Source: a virus. Taken from it: a stretch of DNA of 64,000 bases. The position numbers and the translations under genes are program-made. The notes below the pieces were generated by a model that worked only from the letters and a program-made list of their open reading frames with translations, was not told the DNA's origin and searched no databases. How positions within the stretch are numbered: position 1 is the first letter of the stretch; each line of letters starts with the position of its first letter. The stretch covers positions 1 through 64,000 of the IMG/VR virus record IMGVR_UViG_3300046169_000103. One strand, written 5' to 3'. Positions 1,972 to 62,554 of this stretch are shown in pieces.

Positions 1972-2220
1972 ATGAAGACTCTCTCTTATCCCCCCTCTAA
2001 GCTATCTAAGCATATGACATATCTTATGTCCCATCAGGCTTCCAGTTCCTGGACTCCCGATGAGGATAGAATGAGCCGTGCGGTGCTGAATCGTTTAGCT
2101 GAAGCCCATGGCGTGATGGGTGGTGAAGACATGGATCCGATGGCAAGGGCTCGCTACTATTGCCTGTGTAAACAATCTCTCGATAATGGTTGTCTTTTAG
2201 TTTCTAAAAGCATGACCTAA
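1972..2220 (+). CDS. small hypothetical protein
   Basis: An 82-residue product from the ATG at 1972; an upstream in-frame ATG at 1924 would add a hydrophobic 16-residue leader. The C-terminal half contains a WTPDEDR segment and looks helical. No family recognised. Its stop overlaps the conserved promoter-like element at 2213. Confidence 0.45.
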   Translation: MKTLSYPPSKLSKHMTYLMSHQASSSWTPDEDRMSRAVLNRLAEAHGVMGGEDMDPMARARYYCLCKQSLDNGCLLVSKSMT

Positions 2221-2228
2221 TTTAATAC
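2213..2228 (+). promoter_or_regulatory. conserved TGACCTAA promoter-like element, copy 1
   Basis: Reads TGACCTAATTTAATAC, ending 18 bases before the ATG at 2247. It is the least symmetric of the eight copies. A small hairpin (CTTTTAG and CTAAAAG, 3-base loop) lies just before it at 2194-2210. Orientation agrees with the downstream gene. Confidence 0.5.
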
Positions 2229-2246
2229 ATCATAATATCAAATACT

Positions 2247-2624
2247 ATGGATAAAGAAAAATCAGTATATCAGCATGTCATTGATGGCACTGCTAATTTC
2301 CCGGGTCTAAAGTCACTTGGCTCATCCACTTATTGGGGTGGTTGCTATTGTGCTATTTGTGGGGACAGGGAATATCAAAAGGAAGAACCATACTACGCAG
2401 GACTTGTGCCTCGTCATGTGAGGTTCTGGGACTGCGATGACGGGTGGAAGTCAGGTGTGTTGTGCAAGCATTGCCTTGATGAAGTCGCACATCGTGGACC
2501 AAGGGATGATGACTATGCTAGTCAAGATGCTCGCACAAATGAGGATGCAGTCAATGAACTAGCAAGCCTCATGGGTGATGATGCCGATGGACTCCAATCA
2601 ATGTTGGAGGACTTTAATCTATGA
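2247..2624 (+). CDS. Cys-rich putative zinc-binding protein
   Basis: A 125-residue acidic protein. Cysteines at 33, 35 and 38 (CYCAIC) and at 63, 73 and 76 (CDD...CKHC) look like a treble-clef or zinc-ribbon type metal site, with an Asp/Glu-rich C-terminal third. Such small zinc proteins are common in phage early operons as adaptors or host-takeover factors; I do not recognise the specific family. It is the first gene behind promoter-like copy 1, and its stop overlaps the next ATG. Confidence 0.55.
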   Translation: MDKEKSVYQHVIDGTANFPGLKSLGSSTYWGGCYCAICGDREYQKEEPYYAGLVPRHVRFWDCDDGWKSGVLCKHCLDEVAHRGPRDDDYASQDARTNEDAVNELASLMGDDADGLQSMLEDFNL

Positions 2625-2920
2625 TGGAATCACCAGACAAATCACCAGACATATATGATGTTTATAGTGGTACGCATGACATAGATATACCACTGCATTT
2701 CACGCAAGAGGTTAACATATCTGATTCAGTTGTAGGCACTGAGCTATCCATCGCTACGCCCAAAAGTGCCACTACGCACTCTATTGTTACTATTATCTCT
2801 CATCTCGCAGATCAACTAGAGGATAGATTTGGTAGTGGGCATCAACGCAACAGGGCTAAGAAGTTAGTCAAACTATTGGACATGATCAAGAAGTATGAGG
2901 GGGTGACAGATGAGTACTAA
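2621..2920 (+). CDS. hypothetical protein
   Basis: A 99-residue product. The N-terminal half is Ser/Thr/Asp-rich and probably disordered; the C-terminal half is basic and helical. It overlaps both neighbours (ATGATG at 2621; the next start at 2910), so translation is probably coupled. Function unknown. Confidence 0.5.
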   Translation: MMESPDKSPDIYDVYSGTHDIDIPLHFTQEVNISDSVVGTELSIATPKSATTHSIVTIISHLADQLEDRFGSGHQRNRAKKLVKLLDMIKKYEGVTDEY

Positions 2921-4921: not shown

Positions 4922-4922
4922 T

Positions 4923-6198: not shown

Positions 6199-6373
6199 TG
6201 TTGAGGACCTAGCTAGGGATGCAATGCGTGTTCCTATCATTGCCGAACAAATCAATCAATCTGTCCAACAAATGGGCGAAGTTATAAATAAATTCGAAGA
6301 ATATCTAGATGCATCTGCACCTGTTATCTCGATTAAACATAAGGAGGAAAAAGAAAATGTCGACGAAGTCTAA
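6188..6373 (+). CDS. small helical hypothetical protein
   Basis: A 61-residue product, helical with Gln/Glu-rich heptad-like spacing around residues 18-42, and so possibly a coiled coil. AAAGGAG lies 7 bases before the ATG. Function unknown. Confidence 0.45.
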   Translation: MGYDVEDLARDAMRVPIIAEQINQSVQQMGEVINKFEEYLDASAPVISIKHKEEKENVDEV

Positions 6374-7013
6374 AGAGTGGCAATTATTCAAGAAATGCAG
6401 GGAGGATATTATGTCCAACTATACTAGACCTGAGCAGTCTGCTATGAAACAAAAGTGGACTGATGAATGTCTTGTGCCACTTGGATACAATCACGAGTTT
6501 GAGTTTGTTCGTTGCAAGGAGAAATCCGATGACGAAAAAGCCAAGCTATTCAATGAGTGGTCAGATATGTTCAGGGATGGCAAGTTCAACCCTGATCGTA
6601 AGACAAAAGTAACCAAGAAGGTAAAGCCTAAGCGTGGTGCATCATTGGATGACCTGAGCTTGGATGAACCTGTGGTCAATACGCCTGACACTACAAATAT
6701 TAAAGAACCAACCGAGGTTGATAAAGTTGTCGACCAACAGGTAAAGGAAATGCCTGACTTGGTTGAGCTTACTGAACAAAAACCTAAACCTAAACCAAAG
6801 GAGGATAAGGCTATGCCAAAATCAAAGAAAGAACTACTCCTCGAGGCAATCAGTGCCTTAGAGGAAGAAGAGAGTACCGGAATAACAGAGGAGCAAGTGG
6901 AGGAAATCTCCAAGCGTGTTGCTGTTAAAGTATTTACTGACCTATTTTCTGAGGTCAGTGAAACAATAACAAGCACTCTCTCTAGCTATGTGGAGGATAC
7001 AAAGAACCAATGA
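6357..7013 (+). CDS. hypothetical protein with Pro/Lys linker and coiled coil
   Basis: A 218-residue product from the ATG at 6357, chosen because AAGGAGG lies upstream; a start at 6309 would overlap the previous gene. It has an N-terminal basic helical part, then a Lys/Pro/Glu-rich linker, then a Leu/Glu-rich helical C-terminus. The layout resembles phage accessory DNA-binding or scaffold proteins but matches no named family that I know. Confidence 0.5.
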   Translation: MSTKSKEWQLFKKCREDIMSNYTRPEQSAMKQKWTDECLVPLGYNHEFEFVRCKEKSDDEKAKLFNEWSDMFRDGKFNPDRKTKVTKKVKPKRGASLDDLSLDEPVVNTPDTTNIKEPTEVDKVVDQQVKEMPDLVELTEQKPKPKPKEDKAMPKSKKELLLEAISALEEEESTGITEEQVEEISKRVAVKVFTDLFSEVSETITSTLSSYVEDTKNQ

Positions 7014-9095: not shown

Positions 9096-9097
9096 TT

Positions 9098-10350: not shown

Positions 10351-11170
10351 TGTAACAAATAATAAACTACTACGCTTTCAGTTTGGTAACGCTAAACTAA
10401 GTAAGCTAATCGCCCACGTATCTCTACCTGCAGGCTTTACTTGCCCGGGTGCTAAAGAGTGCCTGACTTTTGCGAACCGCAAGACTCGCAAGCTCAAGGA
10501 TGGTCCTGATACTCAGTTCCGTTGTTATGCAGCCGGAATGGAAGCTAGGTCTCCTGCCTACCACGATATTGTTTGGCATAACTTTGACCTAATAAATCAG
10601 GTCAAAAATGATGAGGATGCATTGTTTGAGTTGTATGCTGAGAGTTTAGCAATGATTCCAAACGCACTAATTGTTCGTAGTGGTGTAAGTGGTGACTTCT
10701 TCACCCAAGAGCAAGCCAATGCAGTAATGAGACTAGCGGATGCAAATCCAAACATACTGTTTTATGCCTACACTAAATCAGTTCCATTCTTCGAGGAACA
10801 CTTGGATTGCGAAGGGAGGGTTAGGGATAACTTCATAGTTACCTGCTCTATCGGTGGCAAACATGATGAGGATGTGTACCGCAGGGAATACAAGTATGCA
10901 GTTGTGGTTAAGGATAAGGCGCACGCTGACCGACTTGGTCTTGAGTGTGACCATGATGACACTCTTGCAATGCAACCTGGTGCTAGTTTCGCTCAACCCA
11001 TTCATGGTGGTCAACCTGCTGGCAGTGAGTGGGGTCAATACTCACGCAAGAATGGATACAACAAATCTAAAAAAGACCCACTAATTGATGTAACAACCTA
11101 TAACATATGGAAGGAAGTAATACATGGCAGTACTAGACATACGACAAAGCGAGCCGTCTCAACCATCTGA
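10340..11170 (+). CDS. GP88-family phage protein
   Basis: A 276-residue protein. The N-terminal text NNKLLRFQFGNAKLSK, then HVSLPAGFTCPGAKECL, with the conserved Cys pair, matches the phage gene-product-88 family. That family is widespread in phages and its biochemical role is not settled as far as I know. Further conserved-looking parts are the RSGVSGDFFT segment and a SIGGKHDED segment. It overlaps the AAA gene by 47 bases in another frame. Confidence 0.6.
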   Translation: MTADVTNNKLLRFQFGNAKLSKLIAHVSLPAGFTCPGAKECLTFANRKTRKLKDGPDTQFRCYAAGMEARSPAYHDIVWHNFDLINQVKNDEDALFELYAESLAMIPNALIVRSGVSGDFFTQEQANAVMRLADANPNILFYAYTKSVPFFEEHLDCEGRVRDNFIVTCSIGGKHDEDVYRREYKYAVVVKDKAHADRLGLECDHDDTLAMQPGASFAQPIHGGQPAGSEWGQYSRKNGYNKSKKDPLIDVTTYNIWKEVIHGSTRHTTKRAVSTI

Positions 11171-14375: not shown

Positions 14376-14510
14376 ATGAGAGAGAAAGACCTCAAAAAAA
14401 TAATAGCAACAGACAGATATAACCTGCTCAGAGGCAAGGAAAGTCGAATCGGGTACTGGCTGAAGAAAATTAAATACAGAATAGAGTTATTTATTTCTGA
14501 CCTAATATAA
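14376..14510 (+). CDS. very small basic protein
   Basis: 44 codons, MREKDLKKIIATDRYN onward, starting 5 bases after the previous stop with GGAG upstream. It is basic, with an amphipathic or hydrophobic end (IELFISDLI). Promoter-like copy 2 lies inside its last codons. Confidence 0.4.
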   Translation: MREKDLKKIIATDRYNLLRGKESRIGYWLKKIKYRIELFISDLI

Positions 14511-14513
14511 TAG
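14498..14513 (+). promoter_or_regulatory. conserved TGACCTAA promoter-like element, copy 2
   Basis: TGACCTAATATAATAG, ending two bases before the helicase ATG at 14516. If it promotes transcription, the helicase message would be leaderless or nearly so, or start further downstream. Otherwise it is an operator. Confidence 0.6.
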
Positions 14514-14515
14514 AT

Positions 14516-17020
14516 ATGTCTAAACCAAGACCAAATGTATATCTGACCCCAACGGGGTCATTGCGGATAAATACCGATGGGATAACTAATTACTCCCTAG
14601 TATGGCGTTTACAGCAAGCACATGGCACAACTGCTATGGCTCTGACTACGAACAATTCCGACAGGATGTTGCTCAATACCATGCTCGAGGAGTACGAGAA
14701 GTATTCATCTAGTGGTAATGCAAGATTCATTGTTTCTCCTGAAGCAGCTGAGTCGATCGATGAAGCAATTACTGCAAGCTCTGAACCCATCCCCCCTATC
14801 CTGCCACTTAAACCCTACGAGAAACTGGGTGCCATCTCAGAGATTGGTAAGTTACAGGCACGGACATCCTTCGGTTCATCCGGTAATAATAAAGAACCAT
14901 ACATTATTAAGAACGAGATGTATGAATTCAATGTATCCACTCGTGACTACGAGAAGGAATACCCTCGCACCAAAATGCATGCCAAGAAGAAGACAGGCGA
15001 AACCTATACAATGGTGCATACCTGTCGACTTGAAGGCACTGACTCATCTTTTACATTCAGGGATGAGAATAGCGAGTGGTGGACATTCAGGGAGCATCCC
15101 GAGACTAGACTAGAATTGAGCGAGAAGAAACTCTGGGAGTACTTCCTTGAGCCGGAAATCGCATCAATCAAGGAACTCTATCCTGAAAAGTGGGAGGAGC
15201 ATAACGAGATGCTTGATATGCTTGAGGACTTGGGTGATGGCACTTGGAAATACTTCGAGGGTCAACGCAAGTTCCTCTCCTCCTTCTCCATGCTGGACTC
15301 TGGTCTGCTTGCTTGGGAGATGGGTGGTGGTAAGACCCTTGCCGCTTACTCAATGTTCTACCTCAAGAATGCTAAGCGTGCATTATTTATTGTACCCAAG
15401 GGCACTAGTGTGAGTGAGGATGGCAGAAAGGTTAAGTTTGATGATGTTCCTCAGTGGGTAGCCGAGGCACAAAAGTTCGCCCCTGATGTCCCTGTCCACA
15501 ATCTCTTTACTAAAGAACAATACGAGAATCTGCTAGACGAGCATGGTCAATTGCCCCGTGGTATATTCCTCACCTACCCTCATGCCCTGTTTAATAATGG
15601 TGGTGCATTTGAGAATATGCCAAAGACCAAGGCATGGAAGAATGAAGCAGGCGAGAAAAAGTTCTGCGAGAAGTATGGCATCGAATACAAGGAGGAGTTT
15701 GGCATTCGCTACACCACTGGTATCGGTGAGGAAATCAATGGCATACATTGCGTGGCTACTCCATCCCTTGCCACCCTGTGCCACCAGCAATTTGATATGG
15801 TGATGGTGGACGAAGCACACCTGATGTGCAACCCCCACTCTAATATCACCCGTGGTTTGCTCAGGATGCAACCTAAGTACAGGTATGCAATGACTGCTAC
15901 CCCTATCCCTAATTATGTTTACAATATCTTCCCCATCATGGGTTGGCTTGCCGTAGATAACTGGCGATTGGACAGGCGACGCTCACCAAGATGGCCTTTT
16001 GGATTGCAGGAGATTAGTAGATTTAAATCTGCCCATGTCTCCAAGGAGAGAGACTTAACCCAGGAAGAATTGGCAGAGAAGTTCGATGAGTCAAAACCAT
16101 CACCGAAAGATTCTGCCACCATTTCGCAGGTCCCCAATCTTCTCTATCTCATTCGTAAGACTTGTGGCTACATGTCTAAGAAGGATATCAATCCAGACAT
16201 AGTCAAATGTGACATAAATACTATCCGTGTCCCCATGGGTAGCCAGCAACATAAGTTGTATGCCCACTACCTCCAACGAAAGAATATTCCACTTGATAAT
16301 CCTATTGCGGTTGCAATGACTCAGCAGACCTACCTTAGATGTCTATGTGCTGATCCATTCGGTGTAGCATACAACAATGTAGAGGACAAGAAGGTGATGT
16401 CTAACTACAACCCCAAGACAGTCGCCACCCTCCAGATGATTGCCGACTACATCAACAAAGGTGAGCAAGTTGTGTATGTCGCTTTTAATAACGGTCAGAT
16501 TGATGAGATTCGTAAGCGTCTAGATATGGCAGATGTCAGGTACTCAATGATTCGTGGTGATGTCAAAGATCAGTCGAGTCAATCCGCTAGGTTTAAGCGT
16601 GGTGAAACCATGGTCATGCTGATGAATATATTCTGTGCCCAAGCCCACTCCTTTGAGAACTGCAAGCATATGATTATCGGTAGCCTTGAGTGGAGTTATG
16701 GTAAGTTCGCTCAGGCTTGCGGTAGAATTCATCGAATCAATAGCCCAGAGGATGTGGATGTAAATGTTATACTCCACGAACACACTATCGAGGAATTATT
16801 GTTCGAGAAGGTAGGCACTAAGGAAGATGCAGCTACCATCTGCATGAAAGCAGAGCATAGCAACAGTGATGTTAAGCCTGTCGACCCTAGTGAGTTGCTT
16901 GCTGAACACTTCGAGAACTTTCGATCCGGCAATCAGGATGTCATGGATGAAGAGGATTGCGAAAGACAATGGCCCGACCTGATGTACAAACTCAAAAACG
17001 GATGTGAAATAGCTTTATGA
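14516..17020 (+). CDS. SNF2/DEAH-type superfamily 2 helicase
   Basis: An 834-residue ATP-dependent DNA translocase or helicase. There is an N-terminal region of about 240 residues of unknown fold. The two RecA-like domains then follow: Walker A EMGGGKTL (about 268-275), motif II DEAH (about 431) and motif III TATPIPN. In the second domain motif VI reads QACGRIHRI (about 733). The organisation is that of SNF2-like and phage D6/UvsW-like helicases. Likely roles are replication-origin melting, recombination or chromatin-like remodelling of phage DNA. SNF2-type helicases also occur in bacterial Dpd modification clusters, which is relevant given the DpdA-like gene 0.5 kb upstream, but phage helicases of this kind are common without it. 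It overlaps the next gene by four bases. Confidence 0.85.
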   Translation: MSKPRPNVYLTPTGSLRINTDGITNYSLVWRLQQAHGTTAMALTTNNSDRMLLNTMLEEYEKYSSSGNARFIVSPEAAESIDEAITASSEPIPPILPLKPYEKLGAISEIGKLQARTSFGSSGNNKEPYIIKNEMYEFNVSTRDYEKEYPRTKMHAKKKTGETYTMVHTCRLEGTDSSFTFRDENSEWWTFREHPETRLELSEKKLWEYFLEPEIASIKELYPEKWEEHNEMLDMLEDLGDGTWKYFEGQRKFLSSFSMLDSGLLAWEMGGGKTLAAYSMFYLKNAKRALFIVPKGTSVSEDGRKVKFDDVPQWVAEAQKFAPDVPVHNLFTKEQYENLLDEHGQLPRGIFLTYPHALFNNGGAFENMPKTKAWKNEAGEKKFCEKYGIEYKEEFGIRYTTGIGEEINGIHCVATPSLATLCHQQFDMVMVDEAHLMCNPHSNITRGLLRMQPKYRYAMTATPIPNYVYNIFPIMGWLAVDNWRLDRRRSPRWPFGLQEISRFKSAHVSKERDLTQEELAEKFDESKPSPKDSATISQVPNLLYLIRKTCGYMSKKDINPDIVKCDINTIRVPMGSQQHKLYAHYLQRKNIPLDNPIAVAMTQQTYLRCLCADPFGVAYNNVEDKKVMSNYNPKTVATLQMIADYINKGEQVVYVAFNNGQIDEIRKRLDMADVRYSMIRGDVKDQSSQSARFKRGETMVMLMNIFCAQAHSFENCKHMIIGSLEWSYGKFAQACGRIHRINSPEDVDVNVILHEHTIEELLFEKVGTKEDAATICMKAEHSNSDVKPVDPSELLAEHFENFRSGNQDVMDEEDCERQWPDLMYKLKNGCEIAL

Positions 17021-18807: not shown

Positions 18808-18823
18808 TGACCTAACATATTAG
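18808..18823 (+). promoter_or_regulatory. conserved TGACCTAA promoter-like element, copy 3
   Basis: TGACCTAACATATTAG, 16 bases before the integrase start. It is immediately followed by the palindrome at 18823-18836, so the integrase probably has its own regulated promoter. Confidence 0.6.
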
Positions 18824-18836
18824 TACACAAGTGTAC
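18823..18836 (+). promoter_or_regulatory. palindromic operator-like site before the integrase
   Basis: GTACAC and GTGTAC arms separated by AA, two bases before the integrase ATG. A dimeric repressor could bind here and block integrase expression; an arm-type recombinase site is a less likely reading. Confidence 0.4.
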
Positions 18837-24000: not shown

Positions 24001-26215
24001 TTGCGTTACGGAAAAGGTAAGTCCCGTACTTTACCTCCTCACCCTTCCCGTCCTTTTCGACCTCAAACAGCCGATCCATATTATCCCGCATCCTAACATT
24101 CTCGTCTAGGACCTTTAATCCAAGTTTTTCTGCTAGGGTTCTATGGAACTCAGAACTTCTTTCATACTCGTTAAAAAGTTTATAAAGCGCATCTCTAGCA
24201 TTCTCACCTAGACTCTCGGAGGGAACTAACTTTGTTGCGTGATTCCACGCCTCTTTCTGAAATCTTTCCTTTTCTCCTGACAGTTGAGGTTGATCCTCAT
24301 TCCATTTAATGAGCGGCCCGATAACATTGTCCATGAATAAGTGACCTTCATTAAACCCAAAAGCCTCCCTAGCCTTATCGAATGCACTGTTCCAGTCTCG
24401 CGCAAGCCCCCTTGCCTCTGGGGCGTATTGCTTGTACCCCATTTCAAATCTCAGAATCATTTGAGATATATCACGACCAAGTTGTCCCGCATTTTGAAAT
24501 CTTTCACGAGCCGACTTTAGGGCATTCATCCTAAACATACCGCCAGTCTCGTACTGAGCATTCCATATCGTCATGGTCTCGGCATTCATGACCATCTGCT
24601 TCACAAAGCGATAGTCATTATCTTCCTGTACGGTTGGGTCTTTTAGGTATTTCTTATTTAATTGGATTGCTTCTTTTAATTCATTGAAGTTCTCAAACTG
24701 CATGAGATTGCTCATGCGAACCTTAATTTCAGACATTGTATACCTGCCATCAACCTTGGTCATGACAGGGAATCTGTCTCCATTATTCAATTGCTTAGCC
24801 GGGTTATGACCAAGAAGCATGCGAAGTCTCTGAGATTCTACATTAAATTCATTATATAATTCTTCGTATACAAATTGATTTTGTAGTGCTCTTTCTCTAT
24901 CTGCCTCTGCCTTGAGTAGTTCGATTCTGTCGTTGACGAACTGAGTTTGAATAAGCCTTTCAAGTTGACTTCCCTGCGGAAAGTAAGAGCTAGAATCTGA
25001 GGATGATAAAACTTTAAGCTCGCCCATGGTAGCACGAGAGAGACTCTGAAGTTTAGCATTCAACCCACGCCTACCTTGCACATCTTGACTCTGACTAAGT
25101 TTAGCTAAGTAAACTAAGTCTTTCCTAAGATTGATTACGGCAGAGACTATGATTGCCCGGTTCTTATTAGTGAAAGTCGGGCTGATGATTTCATATATCT
25201 TTATTGCACTTAAATCGTTTACATTACTAACCTTGCTGACCTCTAGTATTAGGTCAGATAACTTATTGGATGCTATCCCCCCACCACTTGCAGTGGATAC
25301 AATATTGTCTAGTGCTTTATGAAACTCAGCATCAGTCTTAGGTTTACCCGTGATATCCCTATATGCGTTCAGGATTATATCTGTTACTTCCTCTCCTGTT
25401 TCATCCACTACCGCTTGTGCAGTTGTGGATACCCTTGTATCTATTGCCCTTCTCGTCTCATCACCATATCTTGTACGATCAAAGAGATGGGCTTCATCAA
25501 GGATAGTACGCTCTTCAAACTTAGCAATACTGTCTGCAATACTACCTGGTCTTGTTGGGTCCAAACTAGCATCAATGTCCGCAGATTCTTTTTTAACATG
25601 AAACATCTGATTCTCGATCTTTCTCAGAGCATCTACCCTTGCTTGGTCTCTTGTGTTTTCAGAATTTTTATGAAGCTCGATTGTTTGATACTCCATTTCT
25701 TCCCCATACTTTTTGATCAGTTCATTGATCTGTTGAGTTGGAGTTTTTCCTTTCAGGAATGTGTTCCATATATCATCCACCGAAAGGTCGGGCGTATCAA
25801 GTATTCTCCTAATTTGCTGGGCAGCATAAGCAACAGGGATACTTGTTTCATTAACTGCAGCTGCAGTTGCTTTCCCTAATGCTATTGAGTTTTCTTCCGG
25901 CATCACATTCCCGTTTATTGGGGCGATTGGGTCGGACATGGACTGTGTGTCCATAAGGTTATCAATCCTTATTTGGGTTTTATTGAACACAACATAGACG
26001 GTGTCATTAATTGGATCAAAAGTGTTCTTTAGGATAACTCCATCATGCCCTTCCTTCTTGGCCTTATTGATTGCCTTAATGAAGTCGCCACGCTTTCTCC
26101 CTGAGCCCTTAAAATCTATAGTTTTTGGGTTCTCCATTACTAATGTAGCATCAACCACCCCAGCATCAGACTTATTTAAAAGAAGGTCTCCTGCCCAATT
26201 GAGTTCCTGGATCAT
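21041..26215 (-). CDS. giant virion polyvalent protein, C-terminal portion
   Basis: 1724 codons. The first 100 residues hold the second half of a phage-type ADP-ribosyltransferase domain: VVDATLVMENPKTIDF, GHDGVILKNTFD and VYVVFNKTQI. The rest is a long helical, partly Gly/Ala-rich chain with a hydrophobic segment near residue 1420 (AALLMLATIVALKIPF). This fits an ejected internal virion protein that crosses the host envelope with the DNA. The frame stays open upstream of the first Met (GEVAVKLVKDN), and the ADP-ribosyltransferase domain begins in the preceding fragment. The real gene therefore extends to 32971 with frame changes at about 26255, 27715, 28050 and 28235. Confidence 0.65.
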   Translation of the reverse strand: MIQELNWAGDLLLNKSDAGVVDATLVMENPKTIDFKGSGRKRGDFIKAINKAKKEGHDGVILKNTFDPINDTVYVVFNKTQIRIDNLMDTQSMSDPIAPINGNVMPEENSIALGKATAAAVNETSIPVAYAAQQIRRILDTPDLSVDDIWNTFLKGKTPTQQINELIKKYGEEMEYQTIELHKNSENTRDQARVDALRKIENQMFHVKKESADIDASLDPTRPGSIADSIAKFEERTILDEAHLFDRTRYGDETRRAIDTRVSTTAQAVVDETGEEVTDIILNAYRDITGKPKTDAEFHKALDNIVSTASGGGIASNKLSDLILEVSKVSNVNDLSAIKIYEIISPTFTNKNRAIIVSAVINLRKDLVYLAKLSQSQDVQGRRGLNAKLQSLSRATMGELKVLSSSDSSSYFPQGSQLERLIQTQFVNDRIELLKAEADRERALQNQFVYEELYNEFNVESQRLRMLLGHNPAKQLNNGDRFPVMTKVDGRYTMSEIKVRMSNLMQFENFNELKEAIQLNKKYLKDPTVQEDNDYRFVKQMVMNAETMTIWNAQYETGGMFRMNALKSARERFQNAGQLGRDISQMILRFEMGYKQYAPEARGLARDWNSAFDKAREAFGFNEGHLFMDNVIGPLIKWNEDQPQLSGEKERFQKEAWNHATKLVPSESLGENARDALYKLFNEYERSSEFHRTLAEKLGLKVLDENVRMRDNMDRLFEVEKDGKGEEVKYGTYLFRNAITRGYITVPRSLRSDLIQSIITQLPEKGWANQFSEDSSEFSWDGLKMIMESNELDNQVKEKNLDESSKQLIDDYVWKKFMIPYINNTSPRELFDQPKEGLKIPRHVLVDALSGVNGMTGSEAFNAWVDNVYNLLEHKKDRSDFAKFKYGILKKYKRSFSNLNKYVEDKGKKGLDASISLSGHLMDSRAQDAIIPVEFLQYTTYDEVTSPALVAKTLENAFFGRNAEILASKMGQIKDDLKSKQALFGSLATYVGAINNPKGRQKFTRQQKQKAYIELEDNPEFANIPGATGKEKFQNLKNSESQMKSILGGETNSGGAMGHLRAYLESDLGPFQDEKIFYELLGLNAYFVLNQPKSGITNLMSIWDFDAKYGGAVGATAIATQLFSSWTAAGELFGGIMANFGIDINTQSYEADILMPLFFNTHENDTGFRKNMLNVGGGAVKKNQVLGKDFRYDILRPFKTLLDYDSQRGMKVKNSEGRRKYAPFSTRTSVLKPFSYFGSLSNHSIAVGNARMVSKLVHEVASYIEEVNQLQAENGGQLLPDDYQVTSEDLGKILSDKIAFDTLNLDLESYGLGSLSNLARDYMERRNKGDKRILTKDQVITAGLIGVNEVALEGGFSTTPAFLNSPYVRWAAPLQKWALTKVNQMNEGVRNKKTGKVDAQAALLMLATIVALKIPFGLAYTFFWSDWYDEELMGKASPLRPLPKTSMIPLIGPFIEGDPSNNLKAMLERVARAGNVGGMALDFANTMYNGVDTYSYNRGFTLDSRILLASQLTNIGGAVRNWIHMDFDLDYANVVRPLMYSMGMNGPLQQYNLMANFLGLDSEERRISNQIGNRHKLRAGIHLLGIESRPMVGGSIGKTRFSASVRRMERAAEADDYKGFNIAYAEAIEASIDRGDKDPEDAVIKAFKRRNLRTGISRYKLSDEEWASILGLYDKEASQPLVNAMNMHEKYVDILDDSKPKKFKKAQPLTPATYDELIRRSLSL

Positions 26216-26226: not shown

Positions 26227-27729
26227 CTAACTTAACTGCAACCTCCCCGTGTTGCCTATAAGTCCAGCCTCGAATAACCTACTTGTTACAAAATCATAAC
26301 CTTTTTTCTGCTCAGGGTTTTGGCTTAAAGCGTTCCTGTAGTTGTCGTAAGATTCTCTGATCGGGGCTACATTAGATTGGACTGGTTCCTCTGCGTATAT
26401 ACCAATTTTCTCAATGAGTCTGCCAAGTAGACCCTTTGTTTGTGAATACTTACGGGCAGTCTTGATCTTCTTAGCAAAAAAGAATCCAAGCTTAGCTGAC
26501 TCCGCACCCGTGTATGAACCAAGCTTGGCTGGATCAAACCCTTCAATTGCAATAGTTCTAGCACTCTTTGATCCATGGAATGCATTTACCACAACTCTTG
26601 TGCTTAATTTTCTATACTCGGCATCCATTTGCCTGTTTAAGTCAAGCAATGCTTTTAAAGCACTACCATCCGCATCTATCCCTAGTGCTCTGAGTAACTT
26701 TAGGTAGGCACCGTATAGGGCATCCAATACGCTAGTAATAAATCCCTGACCATTCTTATCTACTCTTTGCTGAAGTTCTTTTGAGACTTTTATTCCTGCC
26801 AGGAATTCAGCAAAGCCTCTACTGTTCCATGCACGATTTAAAATCTCTCTGCGAGAGTTAGGATTAGATGCTAGGAATAAAGAGGAGAACTCAGTACCCT
26901 TTGCTTCTTCCCCAGCAACCCTTATGACTTCATCTATTAGGTCAATAGTTTCCTGTAGCTCACTCTTCTCCCCTCTTAGGGTTTTGGATTCATGAGCATG
27001 GAGAGCCTCCTCCATTGTTCCGTGCCACAACTCGTGCATGGCAACCAACATAAGAACATCTCTCTCCTTGTTTCCCGTAAGGGGAAAAGGTTTATCTATG
27101 ATGTCATTTTCACCCAAGTAAAAGTCTGGGTTAATTAAAACTGTAGGTCTTTCAAAATCAGGAATAAATTGACCACGAGTAATGAACACCAGGTGTAGGA
27201 GGGTATTTGTCTTGGTGTTATCGAATCTAATATTAGGTAGGTCTTGATTCTGCCTGCCCTCGAGCATTTGATTAAGTACCTGCACCATTTCAGCACCAAA
27301 CTTCTTACCTTCTGCGGTGCCCTTTTCATTGATTATATTATTAATCGACTCAAGTGCCATTCCGCTGAGGTTTGATCCGGGTAGGTTGCTTGGAAACACT
27401 TCCTCCATCGCCTGCGCATTCTTTATCTTCTGTTCGTCACTTACTGAAGCAATGTTAACGAGGTTGCTTTTCTGGGCCTTAGCTATCTCATCACCATGTG
27501 CAATTGATTGCTCTGTAACCTCAGGCATGATCGGTAGAGATTGACTACCGTATGGGTCTTGCATGTTAGAGACAGGAGGTTTGTTTGGTGCTGATGTTTT
27601 ATTACCTATTGCACCTGTAGCAACCTCTGCCTCTTCAAACTTGCTTTGCAATGTTGTGAGTGGGGCAGACTCTGGAAGCCCGAGGTGCTCTGCCATGAGC
27701 CGTGTAAAATGTATTCTTTTCTTGGGCAA
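26227..27729 (-). CDS. giant virion polyvalent protein, zincin and ADP-ribosyltransferase N-half fragment
   Basis: 500 codons from a TTG; no ATG is near, another sign that this is a fragment. Residues 229-240, VAMHELWHGTME, hold a HExxH zinc-peptidase motif. Residues 382-430 (NAFHGS, YTGAESAKLGFFFA, TARKYS) are the first half of an ADP-ribosyltransferase domain whose second half lies in the next fragment. Both domains are known from large polyvalent phage proteins, which are injected and act on host targets. The frame ends at the GGGG run around 26255; one added G would continue it into the 1724-codon part. Confidence 0.6.
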   Translation of the reverse strand: MPKKRIHFTRLMAEHLGLPESAPLTTLQSKFEEAEVATGAIGNKTSAPNKPPVSNMQDPYGSQSLPIMPEVTEQSIAHGDEIAKAQKSNLVNIASVSDEQKIKNAQAMEEVFPSNLPGSNLSGMALESINNIINEKGTAEGKKFGAEMVQVLNQMLEGRQNQDLPNIRFDNTKTNTLLHLVFITRGQFIPDFERPTVLINPDFYLGENDIIDKPFPLTGNKERDVLMLVAMHELWHGTMEEALHAHESKTLRGEKSELQETIDLIDEVIRVAGEEAKGTEFSSLFLASNPNSRREILNRAWNSRGFAEFLAGIKVSKELQQRVDKNGQGFITSVLDALYGAYLKLLRALGIDADGSALKALLDLNRQMDAEYRKLSTRVVVNAFHGSKSARTIAIEGFDPAKLGSYTGAESAKLGFFFAKKIKTARKYSQTKGLLGRLIEKIGIYAEEPVQSNVAPIRESYDNYRNALSQNPEQKKGYDFVTSRLFEAGLIGNTGRLQLS

Positions 27730-36163: not shown

Positions 36164-36624
36164 TAATTTTCCTCCATTAATAATTTAAGGTCGTGCTCAG
36201 ATATCTCTGGGTCTTCAAAGTTCTTTGCGATTACTTCCTCTTCCACTTTTTCTACATCTGTCTCTTTAGTTGCATGTACAGTAACAAAAGTACAAGGGGT
36301 GTGGGTGTAGATTATTCTTTGAGTACCTGGTAAGGTTATGTCGTAGTGGGGAGCAGTGAAGGTATCCTTCCCGTGCTCCGATAGAATGGATAGTTTTCCG
36401 CTGAGTAAAAAGAATGGGTGTTTCTTCTTGTGAATCTTAGTAACACAAAACTCATGAGCCGGAAACCTTACTTCTCTAATGTATAATCCATCTGCGAAAG
36501 TATGAGTAAGTGGATTATGCTCATCCACTTCATCCCCAGTCATCACATCATCATGCTCAATAAATTCACGATGAAACTCAGTTATAGAGTTACGGAATTC
36601 CTTCCTCTCAGCCAATGAATTCAT
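36163..36624 (-). CDS. cupin-like protein
   Basis: A 153-residue protein. The stretch FADGLYIREVRFPA, then TKIHKKKHPFFLLSGKL and PGTQRIIYTHTP, has the strand, His and Gly spacing of a cupin beta-barrel. Similar small cupin proteins lie beside tail or ejection genes in many marine phages; their role is not known. It is the first gene behind promoter-like copy 4 and leads the ejection-protein operon. Confidence 0.55.
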   Translation of the reverse strand: MNSLAERKEFRNSITEFHREFIEHDDVMTGDEVDEHNPLTHTFADGLYIREVRFPAHEFCVTKIHKKKHPFFLLSGKLSILSEHGKDTFTAPHYDITLPGTQRIIYTHTPCTFVTVHATKETDVEKVEEEVIAKNFEDPEISEHDLKLLMEEN

Positions 36625-36627
36625 GAA

Positions 36628-36643
36628 CTAATATATGAGGTCA
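36628..36643 (-). promoter_or_regulatory. conserved TGACCTAA promoter-like element, copy 4
   Basis: On the minus strand TGACCTCATATATTAG, three bases before the ATG at 36624. The preceding bases contain an imperfect inverted repeat of ACTTTACTTAG-like words (about 36646-36675) that could also end the upstream fibre transcript. Confidence 0.6.
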
Positions 36644-45758: not shown

Positions 45759-46437
45759 CCGTAAAAGTAGCCTCTATATAAAGATTGTTATCTAGTTCCA
45801 GATTAAGCATTGGATACTCGCTAGTGTCCTCGCCCTCCCACTTTAAAAATTGATACCCAGATAGAGGCTTCGCCTCGATAATTAAGATAGATCCACCAGG
45901 ATACTCAGAGGTTTGATTCTTAGGTACAGATTTACCAAACTTGCCCATAGGTAAGTCATACTCCACTCCACCTATAGATACCTTATCTAGGGCTGAGGCT
46001 ATATACTCGCTACCACGATTGAATTCATTTTCGGCAATAGTGAAGGTCTCAAGCACGCCAAAGCTTTCACCAATACCTACTGAACCTTGTTGAATAACAC
46101 ATTCGATCGAAGCTAACCCCCCTGATCTACTAGCAATATGTGCAAAGAAAATTGGAGTGTCCTCATTTAGTCCCGCTACAAAGTTCTCAAATCCATTATG
46201 AACAATTGCGGTTCTGCTATGGGTGTACTCCAGTGCGTGTTTCAGGGAGTCTACTTCTATATCAAATACTGTTCCGTCATGAACGAAGCTACCTGACTTT
46301 TCAGGAAACGCCATGAGTGTTGCATCTGTAACAAATCCTGCACTTATAATATCAGCCAAGGAACTTCTCTTAAGGTAAGAGTCTATATCCCCTGCATCAA
46401 AATCTGCTTCGGAAAGTTCGTTAATCTGTAAAGCCAT
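45751..46437 (-). CDS. putative tail protein
   Basis: A 228-residue protein. Its C-terminal 40 residues (GYQFLKWEGEDTSEYPML, then LYIEATFTDE) form a beta-repeat of the type found in bacterial surface proteins. The N-terminal part is acidic and helical (LQINELSEADFDAGDID). It is the first gene behind promoter-like copy 8, and overlaps the 670-residue adhesin by eight bases. Confidence 0.5.
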   Translation of the reverse strand: MALQINELSEADFDAGDIDSYLKRSSLADIISAGFVTDATLMAFPEKSGSFVHDGTVFDIEVDSLKHALEYTHSRTAIVHNGFENFVAGLNEDTPIFFAHIASRSGGLASIECVIQQGSVGIGESFGVLETFTIAENEFNRGSEYIASALDKVSIGGVEYDLPMGKFGKSVPKNQTSEYPGGSILIIEAKPLSGYQFLKWEGEDTSEYPMLNLELDNNLYIEATFTDE

Positions 46438-46440
46438 GAC

Positions 46441-46456
46441 CTAATTTATTATGTCA
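46441..46456 (-). promoter_or_regulatory. conserved TGACCTAA promoter-like element, copy 8 (variant)
   Basis: On the minus strand TGACATAATAAATTAG, followed by GTC and the ATG at 46437, exactly the spacing of copy 4. A TTGACT hexamer lies 17 bases before CATAAT, so this copy also reads as a conventional -35/-10 promoter. Confidence 0.6.
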
Positions 46457-46479
46457 ATTGTAAAAGTGCGAGTCAATAT

Positions 46480-53231: not shown

Positions 53232-53237
53232 AGTGAT

Positions 53238-53253
53238 ATATTATATTAGGTCA
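53238..53253 (-). promoter_or_regulatory. conserved TGACCTAA promoter-like element, copy 5
   Basis: On the minus strand TGACCTAATATAATAT, six bases before the ATG at 53231. A second partial copy (TTGACCTAG) lies 11 bases further upstream, giving tandem TGACCTA words. Confidence 0.6.
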
Positions 53254-53257
53254 TAAA

Positions 53258-54022
53258 CTAGGTCAATGAATAGTAATTTTGCCAATCACTGAATATCTGA
53301 TCAACCGATTCACTTGGGATAACAAAGTCAGCAATCATCATTTCAAATATTTTACCCTTAAAATTATTGGATGAACTTCTGCCAATATAAACTTCATCAA
53401 TGGTATCAATTGGTACTTTTCTTAAACTTCTTCCACTAAACCCAGATGCGTTTCTTATTGATATGGTGCTAGAAAAGTTACCCGAGTACCCTGAATAGGT
53501 TATATCGGGGCTATCCATCCCACCAAACAATTGATCAATATCGGTGGTTTTATAGTTATCAAACCTCATGTATGCGGACCCGATATCAAAGCAAAGCTCG
53601 TGGGTTGAATTAGATGCAGAGAATATTGGTGCTCTTTTAGCGTCATCCGCAGGGTCGCATATTGCCAAAACTCCTACATCGCTTTGCATGGAACTTGATA
53701 TATCAACTTCACCAAATGCACCCCCGCCCATATTTAAGTAGTAACCCTTGGTTGGGTCATAACCCACGATGGCATCCCCCTGAATTACTACATTAGTTGG
53801 CGTATGGTCGTACCTGACCTTCTGGTCGAATATCTTGACCACGCTTTCACCCACACTATCAGCCAAGTCAGACTCATAAATATCGCCACCCGTAACCTCA
53901 AACAGTGGGCCATTATAGCCCTCCCTGATTGATCTATTTAAAGAGAAAGCAACAAGTGGCTTCCGTGTTATTGCATCAACAGGAAGGTTGTAATCAGCAG
54001 ACTCAGTAACATAGCCAAGCAT
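53258..54022 (-). CDS. hypothetical virion protein
   Basis: A 254-residue beta-rich protein with a concanavalin-like pattern: SIRNASGFSGRSLRKVP, then YIGRSSSNNFKGKIFEMMIAD, the usual end of a LamG-type sandwich. It belongs to a run of three overlapping structural genes of unknown role. It overlaps its upstream neighbour by one base. Confidence 0.5.
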   Translation of the reverse strand: MLGYVTESADYNLPVDAITRKPLVAFSLNRSIREGYNGPLFEVTGGDIYESDLADSVGESVVKIFDQKVRYDHTPTNVVIQGDAIVGYDPTKGYYLNMGGGAFGEVDISSSMQSDVGVLAICDPADDAKRAPIFSASNSTHELCFDIGSAYMRFDNYKTTDIDQLFGGMDSPDITYSGYSGNFSSTISIRNASGFSGRSLRKVPIDTIDEVYIGRSSSNNFKGKIFEMMIADFVIPSESVDQIFSDWQNYYSLT

Positions 54023-56202: not shown

Positions 56203-56206
56203 GTGT

Positions 56207-56248: not shown

Positions 56249-56285
56249 TATTAGTTAACTATGGAACGAACGAAGAGGGACTACC

Positions 56286-58070: not shown

Positions 58071-58098
58071 TTTATATGTTTGGTTTGATTAATGTGAA

Positions 58099-58114
58099 CT
58101 AAGAATTTAGGTCA
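58099..58114 (-). promoter_or_regulatory. conserved TGACCTAA promoter-like element, copy 6
   Basis: On the minus strand TGACCTAAATTCTTAG, 28 bases before the capsid ATG at 58070, upstream of an A+T-rich leader. Together with the terminator at 56207-56248 it makes the capsid gene a single-gene transcription unit. Confidence 0.6.
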
Positions 58115-58269
58115 TCTTTTCTGATAATAACCTACAAATCCCACCAAACGGATAATTCGCTAAATTTTTCTAATTTTTTTTACTTTTCTGTAAATTTTAG
58201 ATTTCTTTTTCTTTTTAAAATTAAGTTTTAAGACTTAAAAGATAATAGCAGGTGTTCAATGAAAAGGGA

Positions 58270-58293
58270 TAAAACACGGCATAACCCATACCG
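58270..58293 (-). terminator. possible weak terminator behind the scaffold gene
   Basis: On the minus strand CGGTAT and ATGCCG arms (one G-T pair) with a GGGTT loop, followed by GTGTTTT. It lies in the 273-base gap between scaffold stop (58344) and capsid start. The rest of that gap is A+T-rich leader plus promoter-like copy 6; no gene is evident in it. Confidence 0.4.
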
Positions 58294-58343
58294 CAAAAAG
58301 ACCTCCGTTCGTATTCATCATACGACTCTATGCCCTGCTAAAA

Positions 58344-59654
58344 TTATAAACCTAGAGCGGATAAAACTGGATTCTTTGCTTGAGTTGATTCCGCTTGTGG
58401 TGTTGCCATACTTGGCCCCCGCCTTGGTTGAGGCTTAACAGGCTTGGGTGTAGGTGCTTGCTGAGTAGGAACAGGCTGTCTGCCTGACTTTGTGTACCCA
58501 GATTTCCTCAGCTTAGCCTCAAAGGCATTCAACTCCTGAGTAATATATTTCTTAGCAGAACTGTTTGCATGATCAACTATCTCCTCATGTGTCAATGTGT
58601 AAGCTTTAGATTTCTCCTTATGTGACAAGCTATGATAATCAGCAAGGCTCACAAACTTCCTTCCGTCCTTTTCGGGCATACTTGACTCAAGTTGATCAAG
58701 AAACCCAGCTAACCTTACATGGTCACGGTTGGATGGGTCGTAATTTGCGAGACCATTAGATATCTCATGAAATGCAAACATAGTTTTCTGGTGAGTGGTA
58801 ACTACCCTGTCCACTATTTCGTACTCTACAGGGTTGCTTTCATATGCGGATTCAGCACCCTCACTATCCATTTTCTCACGAATAAATTCAGGCACCATGT
58901 CTTTTATGTCTGACATCGTCTTCTGCTTTAAAGAATCCACCACTGGCTTGACCTGAGACTTGCGTTGATCCTCCTTAATTGCATCCAATTCAGGCTTGAG
59001 TTCATCCATCGCTTCCTGCTTTGCGAGTCTCCTCGTCCTAAGCTCAACTACACGCTCTAAGTCGTCCTGGGTGAATTTAGGCTTTTTTCTCTTTAGGAAT
59101 TTCTGATAGTCATGATCAGTATCATCAAGAGACGCATCAGGGTCATCCTGTAATCTCGTATCTAGATATTCTTTCTGGTCTTTAAAGAACTGAATATACT
59201 CCGACCTCTTTCCTTTATATTCCTCAAAGTTTTGCTCTGCGAAATCAACAAGTTGAAGTCTTTTATTCTGCTCGGGGGTCAACCAACTTAATTCATCCTC
59301 GGATTGCTTTACGGGCTCAGGTTCTTTCTCGAGTTCCTGCTCGGGCTCTATGATACTTTGAGGCTCCACTTCCTTGAAGAGAGATTTATCAAGCTTGGAT
59401 AGAGACTCCTCAACTTCCTCCTCCTGCACTGGAGTCTCTTCCTTTGCATCTTGAGTAGTTTCTTCGGATTGCTCGTTATTCTGGTTAGCTAATTCAATCG
59501 CATCCGACAATCCGTATACACTTAATTCCCCTGACTCCTGTGGTTGCTCCTCTTGTGGTTGCTCCTCCGGTGGTTCAGCAGAGTCTACTTTCTCAAATAG
59601 TGCTGACATTAAGGACGAGCCAACATTTTCGTTCTGTTCCTGTTCTTCGCTCAT
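58344..59654 (-). CDS. putative scaffold protein
   Basis: A 436-residue protein. The first 130 residues are very Glu/Gln/Pro-rich and disordered, the middle is charged coiled coil (LERVVELRTRRLAKQEAMDEL), and the C-terminal 50 residues are Pro/Gln/Lys-rich. Acidic, helical and unstructured composition directly between portal and capsid genes is the usual scaffold profile. It would shape the procapsid and leave on maturation. Confidence 0.65.
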   Translation of the reverse strand: MSEEQEQNENVGSSLMSALFEKVDSAEPPEEQPQEEQPQESGELSVYGLSDAIELANQNNEQSEETTQDAKEETPVQEEEVEESLSKLDKSLFKEVEPQSIIEPEQELEKEPEPVKQSEDELSWLTPEQNKRLQLVDFAEQNFEEYKGKRSEYIQFFKDQKEYLDTRLQDDPDASLDDTDHDYQKFLKRKKPKFTQDDLERVVELRTRRLAKQEAMDELKPELDAIKEDQRKSQVKPVVDSLKQKTMSDIKDMVPEFIREKMDSEGAESAYESNPVEYEIVDRVVTTHQKTMFAFHEISNGLANYDPSNRDHVRLAGFLDQLESSMPEKDGRKFVSLADYHSLSHKEKSKAYTLTHEEIVDHANSSAKKYITQELNAFEAKLRKSGYTKSGRQPVPTQQAPTPKPVKPQPRRGPSMATPQAESTQAKNPVLSALGL

Positions 59655-59656: not shown

Positions 59657-61951
59657 TTATCTAGTTGGTGGTTGTTCTACTCCTGCCACTTCCTGAGGTG
59701 GCATTCCTGGTTGAAATTGTCCCTGTGGTGGTCTTTGTACTTGAGGTTGAGGTTGTTGTGCTAGCGCACCCTTGATTGTTTGCACCTCTTGATTCATGCC
59801 TTGGATAATTTGTGTAATTTGAGGAACAGTCTGCTTGAGTTGCTCCACAAATTGAGAGTTTGCAAGAGATAGATCCTCTTGAGTGTCAGTTTCCACATTG
59901 AGGTCATAAGCTGCACCTGAGAGACGAAATATTTCATTCATAATCTCAAGAACCTTCTCCGTGCCTACTGCCTGCATAATTGGCTGAACTGAAACTATCT
60001 GTTGAAGTAGTCCCGCTAGAGTCTGCGCAGATTGCGTATTAACTGCTCTTTCCGCACCATCCCTTGATGAGAAATTATACTCATGTAGAAGTACATCGGG
60101 CGTTCCTATTACTGTCCTCTTTGCCTGAGGGTTTAAGTAGTCAGAACTCGACCCATATGGTGCCTCCTGGAATCCAGCATTCTTTACAATCTCTTTAGTG
60201 TATCTTCCTTGTACGGGAACCCGAAACTCCTCATCACTGCAGGAAACCAAATGCTCGAATAACATCTTCTTTGCTCCTGCACGAAGCTCATCAATACCTT
60301 CTGATATGAATGAATAAATTGCCTGCGTAGTTGTTGCTATCTCCGTTACCTCTGTAGCAGATATCTCACGAGGAGCAGGTTGCCCCAGTTCCTGTGGCGA
60401 TAGTATGAGTAGTCTTTCTACTAAGTTGAGTAGCTGTGTAGTAGACTGAATAGCTTGATTTACTGATGCCGCCATCTCACTTTGTACCTCTATTACTGAT
60501 ACAAAATCTTTAGCATTTAAACCTAGGTCTGCCATCTTAGCACCAGAGTAGAATAACGCATGAGGTTTTGTGTACATCGTACCCTCATTCATTGCATCCT
60601 GAATATATGCCTTAACATCATCATCTAATGCATCCTGATCGATAGCGAAGATTTTCATCATGCTAATCTTCATATCATGGAGCATTTTATTCATGATATT
60701 ATTCATCTGATCCTGAAATGGCATCAATTCATGTGCTACAGAAATGTTTACCATTCTTGCATCATTCTGATTCAATCCACCATATATAGCGGGTATACTT
60801 GGAAGAAACTCAGCGTGTAGCACTGTATTGTCACTAGCTACTACCATTTTCATCCATACATCATGAGGATAATCCCCTATACCCTCTTCTGCCGGATTTA
60901 TCCTACAGAAGTAATTGGATAGAAATATACCTTTATCCTCATCCTCAGAGCCGTAAACACCAGTGTTTGCAGTTCTGTCATTCTTCATAGCCCACTCCGA
61001 TTTCCTGTTAGGAAACCTCATAGTCTCTGGGTCTAAGTAATAACTAAAGAACTCTTTATGGGAGTCGTATGCACCAAAAAGGTTGCTATTAAATGAAATA
61101 TCATCCGTGTTCCAATAACCGGGATTGTCAGAGATATCTTCAAACTTTAATACATCCCAATAGCCAATCCAGTCAGGACCGTTGTCTGTATTAATATCAG
61201 CAAGAGGTTTTGATTGGTCATGCATGATTCTGGTTGGGTGAGGTTTAACAAAGTCTACACCCTCCCTGCATACATAACTTTCTATACCTTCGGCCTTCAT
61301 CTTGTTATGCCTCCAAGTAGTTGCCCTAGTCCAAGCACTCTCGGGAAACATTACAACAAAACCGTACATAAACATATCCCGAATACCCTGACCAAAAAGA
61401 TGCCTATAATTAAACTGGTCACACATCATCTCTACCCTCTGGGATAATACATCTGCCCTCAACTTATCCTCAGCAGAAGTACCACGAGGTTCATACTTAA
61501 AATATGGAAAAAGATTAGAGAATCTTGATACCTGTGCCGCCACCCTTCGGGTCACATAGGATCGTATGATGTTAACAGAAACCTCATACAACCTAAGTAG
61601 GTTTATGTTTTTTAATGTACCTTCATCATTATACTCACAAAATTGATCTGCAGTCCCTATTCCCTCAAGGCACTCTGCGGTGTCCTCTATAGATATTTTA
61701 CCTTGTGCATACTGTAATAACGGAATGGTTGACTTATTAATTGGTAGCGAATCCCAAGCTAAATCTACCGACATAAAAAGATTACTATTCTTAGCAGAAT
61801 GAAATATCCCCTGGCGCACACGAGACTCAATTTGGTCTTCGAACTTTGAACGAATCCTGAAATTATCTGACGATTCATCGGTTTCTGTGAATATTTCACG
61901 CAACCTATCGTGCGTGCATCCGTATCTTTTAAGTATGTCTAAGTCTACCAT
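59657..61951 (-). CDS. portal protein
   Basis: A 764-residue protein of the size class of short-tailed-phage (P22-type) portals. It is recognised mainly by place (terminase, two small genes, portal, scaffold, capsid) and by long helical segments in the middle. Those include MAASVNQAIQSTTQLLNLVERLL and EVTEIATTTQAIYSFISEGIDEL. The C-terminus is Pro/Gln-rich and probably disordered. It forms the dodecameric DNA channel at the head vertex. It overlaps the preceding small gene by 23 bases. Confidence 0.7.
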   Translation of the reverse strand: MVDLDILKRYGCTHDRLREIFTETDESSDNFRIRSKFEDQIESRVRQGIFHSAKNSNLFMSVDLAWDSLPINKSTIPLLQYAQGKISIEDTAECLEGIGTADQFCEYNDEGTLKNINLLRLYEVSVNIIRSYVTRRVAAQVSRFSNLFPYFKYEPRGTSAEDKLRADVLSQRVEMMCDQFNYRHLFGQGIRDMFMYGFVVMFPESAWTRATTWRHNKMKAEGIESYVCREGVDFVKPHPTRIMHDQSKPLADINTDNGPDWIGYWDVLKFEDISDNPGYWNTDDISFNSNLFGAYDSHKEFFSYYLDPETMRFPNRKSEWAMKNDRTANTGVYGSEDEDKGIFLSNYFCRINPAEEGIGDYPHDVWMKMVVASDNTVLHAEFLPSIPAIYGGLNQNDARMVNISVAHELMPFQDQMNNIMNKMLHDMKISMMKIFAIDQDALDDDVKAYIQDAMNEGTMYTKPHALFYSGAKMADLGLNAKDFVSVIEVQSEMAASVNQAIQSTTQLLNLVERLLILSPQELGQPAPREISATEVTEIATTTQAIYSFISEGIDELRAGAKKMLFEHLVSCSDEEFRVPVQGRYTKEIVKNAGFQEAPYGSSSDYLNPQAKRTVIGTPDVLLHEYNFSSRDGAERAVNTQSAQTLAGLLQQIVSVQPIMQAVGTEKVLEIMNEIFRLSGAAYDLNVETDTQEDLSLANSQFVEQLKQTVPQITQIIQGMNQEVQTIKGALAQQPQPQVQRPPQGQFQPGMPPQEVAGVEQPPTR

Positions 61952-62249
61952 TTTTTAGTGCCCCTGATAATACATTTGGAATGGTGTCATTTACGAAATC
62001 CCCAATGACTTGATCCTCCAAAATAGTTAAAAGGATACATGCTGGCATAGATATCCCCCTTCTTGCTAGTTGTCTGAAAAAAGTATCCTCGTTTATCCCA
62101 AGAAGTGCCGCCAGTTCCTGTTCCGTAATTCGAAGAAAACCACAGATTCTTTTTACCCTTCTTTCGTTCCATTTGTCCTGTAGGTTTAACCTTTTATAGT
62201 GAATTTCTATAGCAACCGCAGATGGTGCTTTGACTGACTCCTTAGCCAT
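61929..62249 (-). CDS. helix-turn-helix protein, possible small terminase or packaging regulator
   Basis: A 106-residue basic protein. RICGFLRITEQELAALLGI, then NEDTFFRQLARRGIS, is a clear helix-turn-helix. Placed between large terminase and portal, it could be a small terminase subunit or a late-gene regulator. It is shorter than most small terminases. It overlaps both neighbours. Confidence 0.5.
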   Translation of the reverse strand: MAKESVKAPSAVAIEIHYKRLNLQDKWNERRVKRICGFLRITEQELAALLGINEDTFFRQLARRGISMPACILLTILEDQVIGDFVNDTIPNVLSGALKNGRLRHT

Positions 62250-62529
62250 TAATCATGCTTCTTAAAATTCCTCCAGGAATCTCAGACTCCGGTTCGAGGT
62301 CATCATCTTCTTCGATTTCCTCATTAGAGTCATTCTGGTCATCTATATCTGATGACATTCGTCGTACATCCTCTACTGGCATACGCACTGTTCCAGCTAT
62401 TCTCTTGTCCGATTTCTCTGAAATTAATACTTGGAGTGTTACCTCTACAGTTTGACCTTCAGCCACATTTGCAAATGCATTTTGAGTAGCTTCGTCATCC
62501 GTTGTGTCCAAAAGTAATGTGTTTGCCAT
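62242..62529 (-). CDS. small acidic hypothetical protein
   Basis: A 95-residue acidic protein (MANTLLLDTTDDEATQN; poly-Glu/Asp stretch near residue 75). First gene behind promoter-like copy 7. Its 3-prime end overlaps the helix-turn-helix gene by eight bases. Unknown, possibly packaging-associated. Confidence 0.5.
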   Translation of the reverse strand: MANTLLLDTTDDEATQNAFANVAEGQTVEVTLQVLISEKSDKRIAGTVRMPVEDVRRMSSDIDDQNDSNEEIEEDDDLEPESEIPGGILRSMING

Positions 62530-62538
62530 ATATAGAAT

Positions 62539-62554
62539 CTAATATTTTAGGTCA
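62539..62554 (-). promoter_or_regulatory. conserved TGACCTAA promoter-like element, copy 7
   Basis: On the minus strand TGACCTAAAATATTAG, nine bases before the ATG at 62529. It separates the terminase from the portal-scaffold unit. Confidence 0.6.

Follow-up and report, generated by a model that had tools for sequence, protein, structure and literature searches.

Operator sets that span a whole phage genome are known from a few cultured phages (P1, L5, SPbeta). According to the cited sections of PMC9283540, L5 and the cluster A phages carry more than 20 asymmetric 13-bp sites, bound by a monomeric repressor and located in promoters and short intergenic gaps, and one repressor is proposed, in sections of PMC9283540 and PMC6550527, to stop both initiation and elongation. 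Repressors of the L5 type combine helix-turn-helix and stoperator domains. P1 C1 is described with 22 asymmetric 17-bp operators, ATTGCTCTAATAAATTT, dispersed over the genome and controlling lytic functions (sections of PMC8546580). Dyad boxes of host LexA precede many genes of the SPbeta prophage (sections of PMC8270828), and the small controller protein C.Kpn2I is presented as an elongation roadblock (PMC6237814).

Here we analyzed a window of 64,000 bases (bases 1-64000 of the 65,923-base virus record G000), in which an element of an uncultured marine phage recurs about a dozen times and would fit a binding site for an off switch acting across the phage better than a new kind of promoter. 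As in L5, to the extent that the cited sections describe it, many copies lie across the phage genome, inside and outside promoters; here 12 are strong, fewer than the more than 20 of L5. Unlike the L5 site, which those sections present as 13 bp long, asymmetric and orientation-dependent, the element is a 20-bp dyad with both halves conserved, and four extra sites lie inside coding sequence, whereas the non-promoter sites of L5 are placed in short intergenic gaps. The P1 C1 operators are likewise dispersed over the phage genome but are given in the cited sections as 17-bp and asymmetric (ATTGCTCTAATAAATTT), while ours is a symmetric 20-bp dyad in both the logo and the dyad counts; the CTAATAAATT run common to the P1 operators and the element is probably a chance similarity. 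The set would work much as those of L5, P1 and SPbeta do, but we assigned it to none of the three; symmetry was tested and fits neither L5 nor P1. SPbeta resembles it in carrying dyad boxes upstream of genes and differs, in the sections cited, in its host binder, sequence and centre length; C.Kpn2I, as described, acts at one locus, unlike the phage-wide set seen here. The operator set proposed here belongs to a family of uncultured marine phages, on which our searches of the open-licence literature listed nothing.

A preliminary description, made from the sequence alone, had reported a 16-base element just before eight start codons. All eight sites were found, each oriented like its gene and 2-28 bases upstream of the ATG (16-mer starts 2213+, 14498+, 18808+, 36628-, 46441-, 53238-, 58099- and 62539-). 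At up to three mismatches the 16-mer has 17 matches, overlapping matches on opposite strands being scored separately, compared with a mean of 0.93 and a maximum of 4 in 100 dinucleotide shuffles. The palindrome had been placed in the last 12 bases of the 16-mer, but the symmetric unit is 20 bp long, TGACCTAAT..ATTAGGTCA, and at gene-proximal sites from seven phage records it reads TRACCTAATAWATTAGRTCA, with the core TGACCT-N8-AGGTCA. The logo (47 sites listed, 29 left once near-copies were dropped) limits the information to these 20 positions, with flat flanks lacking a fixed second box. It is partly circular because its sites were picked by resemblance; a matrix from relatives, spacer and half-site counts and an ab initio search are more independent tests.

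In ten phage records, some of them so closely related that part of the places are not independent, the core occurs 36 times at up to one mismatch, as against 0-5 times for other spacers from 0 to 20, and perfect dyads number 20 versus 0-1 for each of 179 permuted half-sites. G000 alone has three TGACCT dyads, just one more than the shuffle maximum of two. An ab initio motif search of upstream regions returned the element as top motif in G000 and the distant G016, and not as top motif in G015 or G010. Of the two half-sites, the right one is the weaker, most of all in G015/G016, where sites are nearly directional and intragenic perfect dyads are absent; a search for a dyad set of their own in G010 and in G015/G016 found none. 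Four perfect dyads with a spacer of 10, TGACCT-N10-AGGTCA, were also seen (G008 21911, G001 8673, G006 4755 and G003 3298), and in all four phages they fall at a single orthologous position that lies upstream of the fibre operon. An RNA hairpin at the start codon was considered and set aside, as in the 47 listed sites the A at position 17 mostly faces a C at position 4, giving no pairing, and where position 2 differs, position 19 seldom changes to match (both judged by eye, with no covariance tool).

With the relatives' matrix (14 training sites, none from G000), the 12 top-ranked sites in G000 are the earlier eight and four intragenic ones at 6938, 10585, 25237 and 26925. Their scores run from 26.9 to 14.8 and the next match reaches 10.7; controls gave one to four matches of at least 9 in eight Markov shuffles and three in the reversed sequence. 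When G000 sites were included in a second matrix run, single shuffles scored up to 15.2 in G000 and 18.8 in G001, so the weakest sites lack significance by score alone. The sites, selected in advance of the test, are spaced over the record more evenly than random (CV 0.44; 0.4% of 20,000 random draws were equally even).

Eight sites stand at gene starts. On the plus strand, 2213..2232 (TGACCTAATTTAATACATCA) precedes the ATG at 2247 of a 125-aa early gene, with a site placed alike ahead of different first genes in G001, G006 and G008; 14498..14517 precedes the ATG at 14516 of an SNF2-type helicase gene; and 18808..18827 precedes the ATG at 18839 of a tyrosine recombinase gene, as it also does in G008. 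On the minus strand, sites lie at 36624..36643 before the ATG at 36624, at 46437..46456 (TGACATAATAAATTAGGTCA) before the ATG at 46437, as in G001 and G004, at 53234..53253 before the ATG at 53231, at 58095..58114 before the ATG at 58070 of a 594-aa gene following a 436-aa gene, and at 62535..62554 (TGACCTAAAATATTAGATTC) between the terminase stop and the ATG at 62529. A second TGACCTA copy is present 12 bases upstream of the 53234 site (53234-53266, minus strand), also in G001, G004, G006 and G009, and provides a TTGACC box.

We scored sigma70-type promoters with a frequency matrix, allowing the start from 45 bases before the ATG to one base past its A, at 45 of the 47 sites (two had no clear ATG). 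Ten of the 45, and one of the eight in the window, scored better than 95% of flank shuffles. These ten best-scoring sites belong to four orthologous groups, have predicted starts 0-4 bases before the ATG and place the -10 at element position 4, 9, 11 or 14; at some gene starts an ordinary predicted TTGA-16..18-TANNNT promoter lies beneath the dyad, at differing phases. A predicted promoter at 46448..46476 (minus strand) pairs a -35 TTGACT (46476-46471) with a -10 CATAAT (46453-46448) over a 17-base spacer and was also scored in G001 and G009. The one predicted at 53240..53266 (minus strand) has a -35 TTGACC (53266-53261), a spacer of 15 and a -10 TATAAT, its relatives scoring with a spacer of 17. 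At 62536..62563 (minus strand) a possible promoter, weak by score (shuffle p 0.35), combines a -35 TTGATT (62563-62558), which overlaps the terminase stop codon, with a spacer of 16 and a -10 TAGATT (62541-62536). Most copies were first described as lacking a -35 at 17 bases; whether they do hinges on the position chosen for the -10. A clear -35 stands at 46441, a fair one at 53238 and a low-scoring one at 62539, and none is convincing at 2213, 14498, 18808, 36628 and 58099. L045 and L048, two relatives that lack the element, show TTGATT-17-TAAAAT and TTGACA-17-TAGATT, respectively, in the post-terminase gap near the ATG (by eye); boxes are less clear in L046, L047 and L027.

A Shine-Dalgarno match of at least 4 precedes none of the eight element genes of the window, versus 44 of 68 others (p 0.0006), and 6/30 versus 147/311 in six phages pooled, with single relatives mixed and the opposite trend in G008 (3/5) and G006 (2/4). 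From the promoter scores and the boxes of L045 and L048 we infer that the element overlies promoters of host type whose mRNAs would be leaderless or almost so. Such a geometry offers a testable model for silencing early and late genes in these phages.

Four copies lie inside genes. Perfect dyads occur at 6938..6957 (TGACCTATTTTCTGAGGTCA), within ORF 6309-7013 and with the same codons in the G001 and G008 orthologues; at 10585..10604 (TGACCTAATAAATCAGGTCA), within the GP88-family gene 10340-11170 and kept in G008; and at 25237..25256, within a 1724-aa gene (21041-26215, minus strand), with the same peptide context at G008 46550 and G017 94. The weakest site, a dyad with one mismatch at 26925..26944, falls within ORF 26227-27729 (minus strand) and has a similar peptide context at G008 52943. 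Related phages have their intragenic copies at matching positions. For a DUF2800-family gene, compared over ten sequences of which two are 96% identical in codons, the dyad codons rank first of 278 seven-codon windows, with a synonymous identity of 0.88 versus 0.52. Matching copies are found in three further genes: in a 234-aa gene G000 and G008 share the dyad codons although the proteins are 28% identical, and in the giant gene the dyad stands at two matching peptide contexts. Every intragenic site with its frame worked out is read as D-L-x-x-x-V; of the two alternative frames, one is unavailable since its TGA would be a stop codon.

The preliminary description had named equally good matches at random intragenic places as a result that would speak against its reading. 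Good intragenic matches do exist, so that this test came out positive, but those tested are conserved, not random; as intragenic matches under selection, they favor operators. Coding-sequence sites held by synonymous constraint also suggest a sequence-based route to possible roadblock operators. The three giant late genes (1724, 500 and 1589 aa; 21041-32971, minus strand) correspond to parts of one 5397-aa G008 protein (42417-58610), whose 4105-aa relative in G015 carries an ADP-ribosyltransferase domain of polyvalent proteins.

We further investigated how far the element extends among relatives. A terminase search gave 20 virus loci. In 19 of these, all but L027, the element sits in the gap that follows the terminase stop, ahead of the next gene. 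When 13 of these loci were scanned over their whole records, matches were found in 12, and none in G010, the record of L027. A strong site was sought in G010, L045, L046 and L048 without success; in L047 a single related dyad stands in the post-terminase gap, scoring 16.8 versus at most 10.0 in the four shuffles of L047. In two records whose relationship rests on the tyrosine recombinase (35% identity), TAACCTAATAAATTAGAT occurs, likewise before ATGs. Of three proteins compared with 50,697 phage records, two found no match and the third, the terminase, matched TP-84 weakly. No near DNA match was found for the first 25 kb.

Just beyond the window, at record bases 65,713-65,762 (L029), lies a tRNA 3' half that is probably the attachment site. 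Its last 38 bases recur with one or two mismatches, never exactly, in 12 of 288 genomes from the phylum of a Verrucomicrobia MAG that holds a relative, compared with none at up to two mismatches in 200 and 247 genomes of two other phyla, and the matching gene is tRNA-Phe in both genomes checked. A terminase search of 387 genomes of the MAG's phylum returned nothing beyond the MAG already holding the relative. These matches make Verrucomicrobiota the likely host.

Taken together, symmetry, variable phase and intragenic copies point to steric operators of a dimeric protein. With moderate confidence, we favor reading the element as the operator family of a putative dimeric DNA-binding protein that blocks initiation at gene starts and elongation inside genes. 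The binder would most likely be a repressor, and is more likely phage-encoded than host-encoded. At gene starts, where the element would span the core of host-sigma70-type promoters for leaderless or nearly leaderless mRNAs, the bound protein would block initiation; inside genes it would act as a roadblock to elongation. With about twelve sites, one per few kilobases, a single protein could silence both early and late regions, either as long as the phage is a prophage or during a defined stage of infection. The operator and the possible dimeric repressor of the preliminary description agree with the 20-bp dyad, with its variable phase relative to sigma70-type promoters and with the conserved intragenic copies. 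That the set amounts to an independently evolved stoperator-like system, in which a dimeric phage protein would halt initiation at leaderless promoters and elongation across the genome from evenly spread symmetric sites, some under synonymous constraint, seems to us unlikely.

The other option raised at the outset, an unusual sigma factor or phage-specific promoter, is not supported. The element would then be a promoter core that host RNA polymerase reads with the help of a sigma-like factor or an activator from the phage, transcripts starting at the downstream edge of the element. The placement of the window's eight sites just before ATGs, gene-oriented and with at least two bases between 16-mer and ATG, would suit this, as would the nearly directional sites of G015/G016 and the five of eight window sites without a convincing sigma70 promoter. 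Against it stand the conserved intragenic dyads away from starts, the symmetric logo with its flat flanks, and the predicted sigma70-type promoters, whose phase relative to the element varies over four orthologous groups and which recur as ordinary promoters in two element-free relatives. An RNA polymerase gene was found neither by Pfam (one scan covering the best 25 of 38 families) nor by PDB sequence searches nor by a catalytic-motif scan of large proteins, in records that may be incomplete. A promoter core seems unlikely to us, and a phage-encoded activator may yet be involved.

A host regulator such as LexA might instead bind the sites and silence the prophage. E. coli LexA boxes likewise have an N8 centre. 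Host LexA boxes in SPbeta set a precedent (sections of PMC8270828). Yet of the 12 genomes with the tRNA match, all from the likely host phylum, one has the perfect dyad and two have the reversed control. The published Verrucomicrobia LexA box reportedly differs from the element as well, and we consider a host regulator very improbable. Alternatively, the sites might bind an architectural protein for the condensation, partition or preparation of phage DNA, and their overlap with promoters would then be secondary. This would fit the more even than random spread and the symmetric intragenic copies but does not account for eight of 12 sites lying gene-oriented no more than 28 bases from a start codon, and we consider it very improbable.

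For the dimeric protein of the operator reading, one candidate is a Cro-like helix-turn-helix (HTH) protein of 106 aa (61929-62249, minus strand), encoded by the second gene behind the 62535 site. Pfam Xre-like-HTH matches it at E 3.5e-4 and 21.2 bits, below the cut-off of 25.8, and its model is helical and confident (pLDDT 84.7), with weak, mostly Cro-like fold matches. Among these is the C.Kpn2I structure (Z 6.2), a fold common to many Cro-like proteins. Foldseek gave no PDB match with E below 2.4 and one viral protein at E 5.9e-4. The candidate recognition helix reads TF.(R/K)QL in the TGACCT phages and differs in G015 and G010. By tblastn the protein is present in every one of the 13 phage records and 24 loci searched, and its candidacy is weakened because phages without the element encode it too; its place in a late operon also makes it less apt as a lysogeny repressor. 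If it does bind, the set could serve a shutdown of late transcription before DNA packaging, beyond a prophage role.

Other candidates include the N-terminal ribbon-helix-helix (RHH) part of the replication protein, which is conserved in element phages, and the proteins of a likely lysogeny module. The latter comprises divergent small genes by the integrase in G003 (11890-12497) and G008 (9039-9678), of which reading suggests one to be RHH-like and the other wHTH-like. The module proteins are less favored as binder, since phages that share the element have either of two wHTH forms and differ in their RHH. The module region has other palindromes (TATCGCATATGCGATA in G008), and the module is absent from the G000 record.

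Several further features of the window were seen. The integrase-like tyrosine recombinase (18839-19894, plus strand) is distant from the tRNA end, beside which relatives carry another tyrosine integrase, giving two recombinases per phage. G+C is lower (0.33) in bases 1-2000, where ORFs 45-509 and 346-801 overlap, the second with a SAP domain; since ORF 45-509 matches a 259-aa G008 protein, the gene may be frameshifted in G000. A tail-region protein (40695-42797, minus strand) combines collagen-like repeats with a sialic acid-specific acetylesterase-like domain. Finally, 13149-14027 (plus strand) is a queuine tRNA-ribosyltransferase-like gene (PHROG), and one DpdA member in the Pfam scan of G008 proteins makes 7-deazaguanine DNA modification possible.
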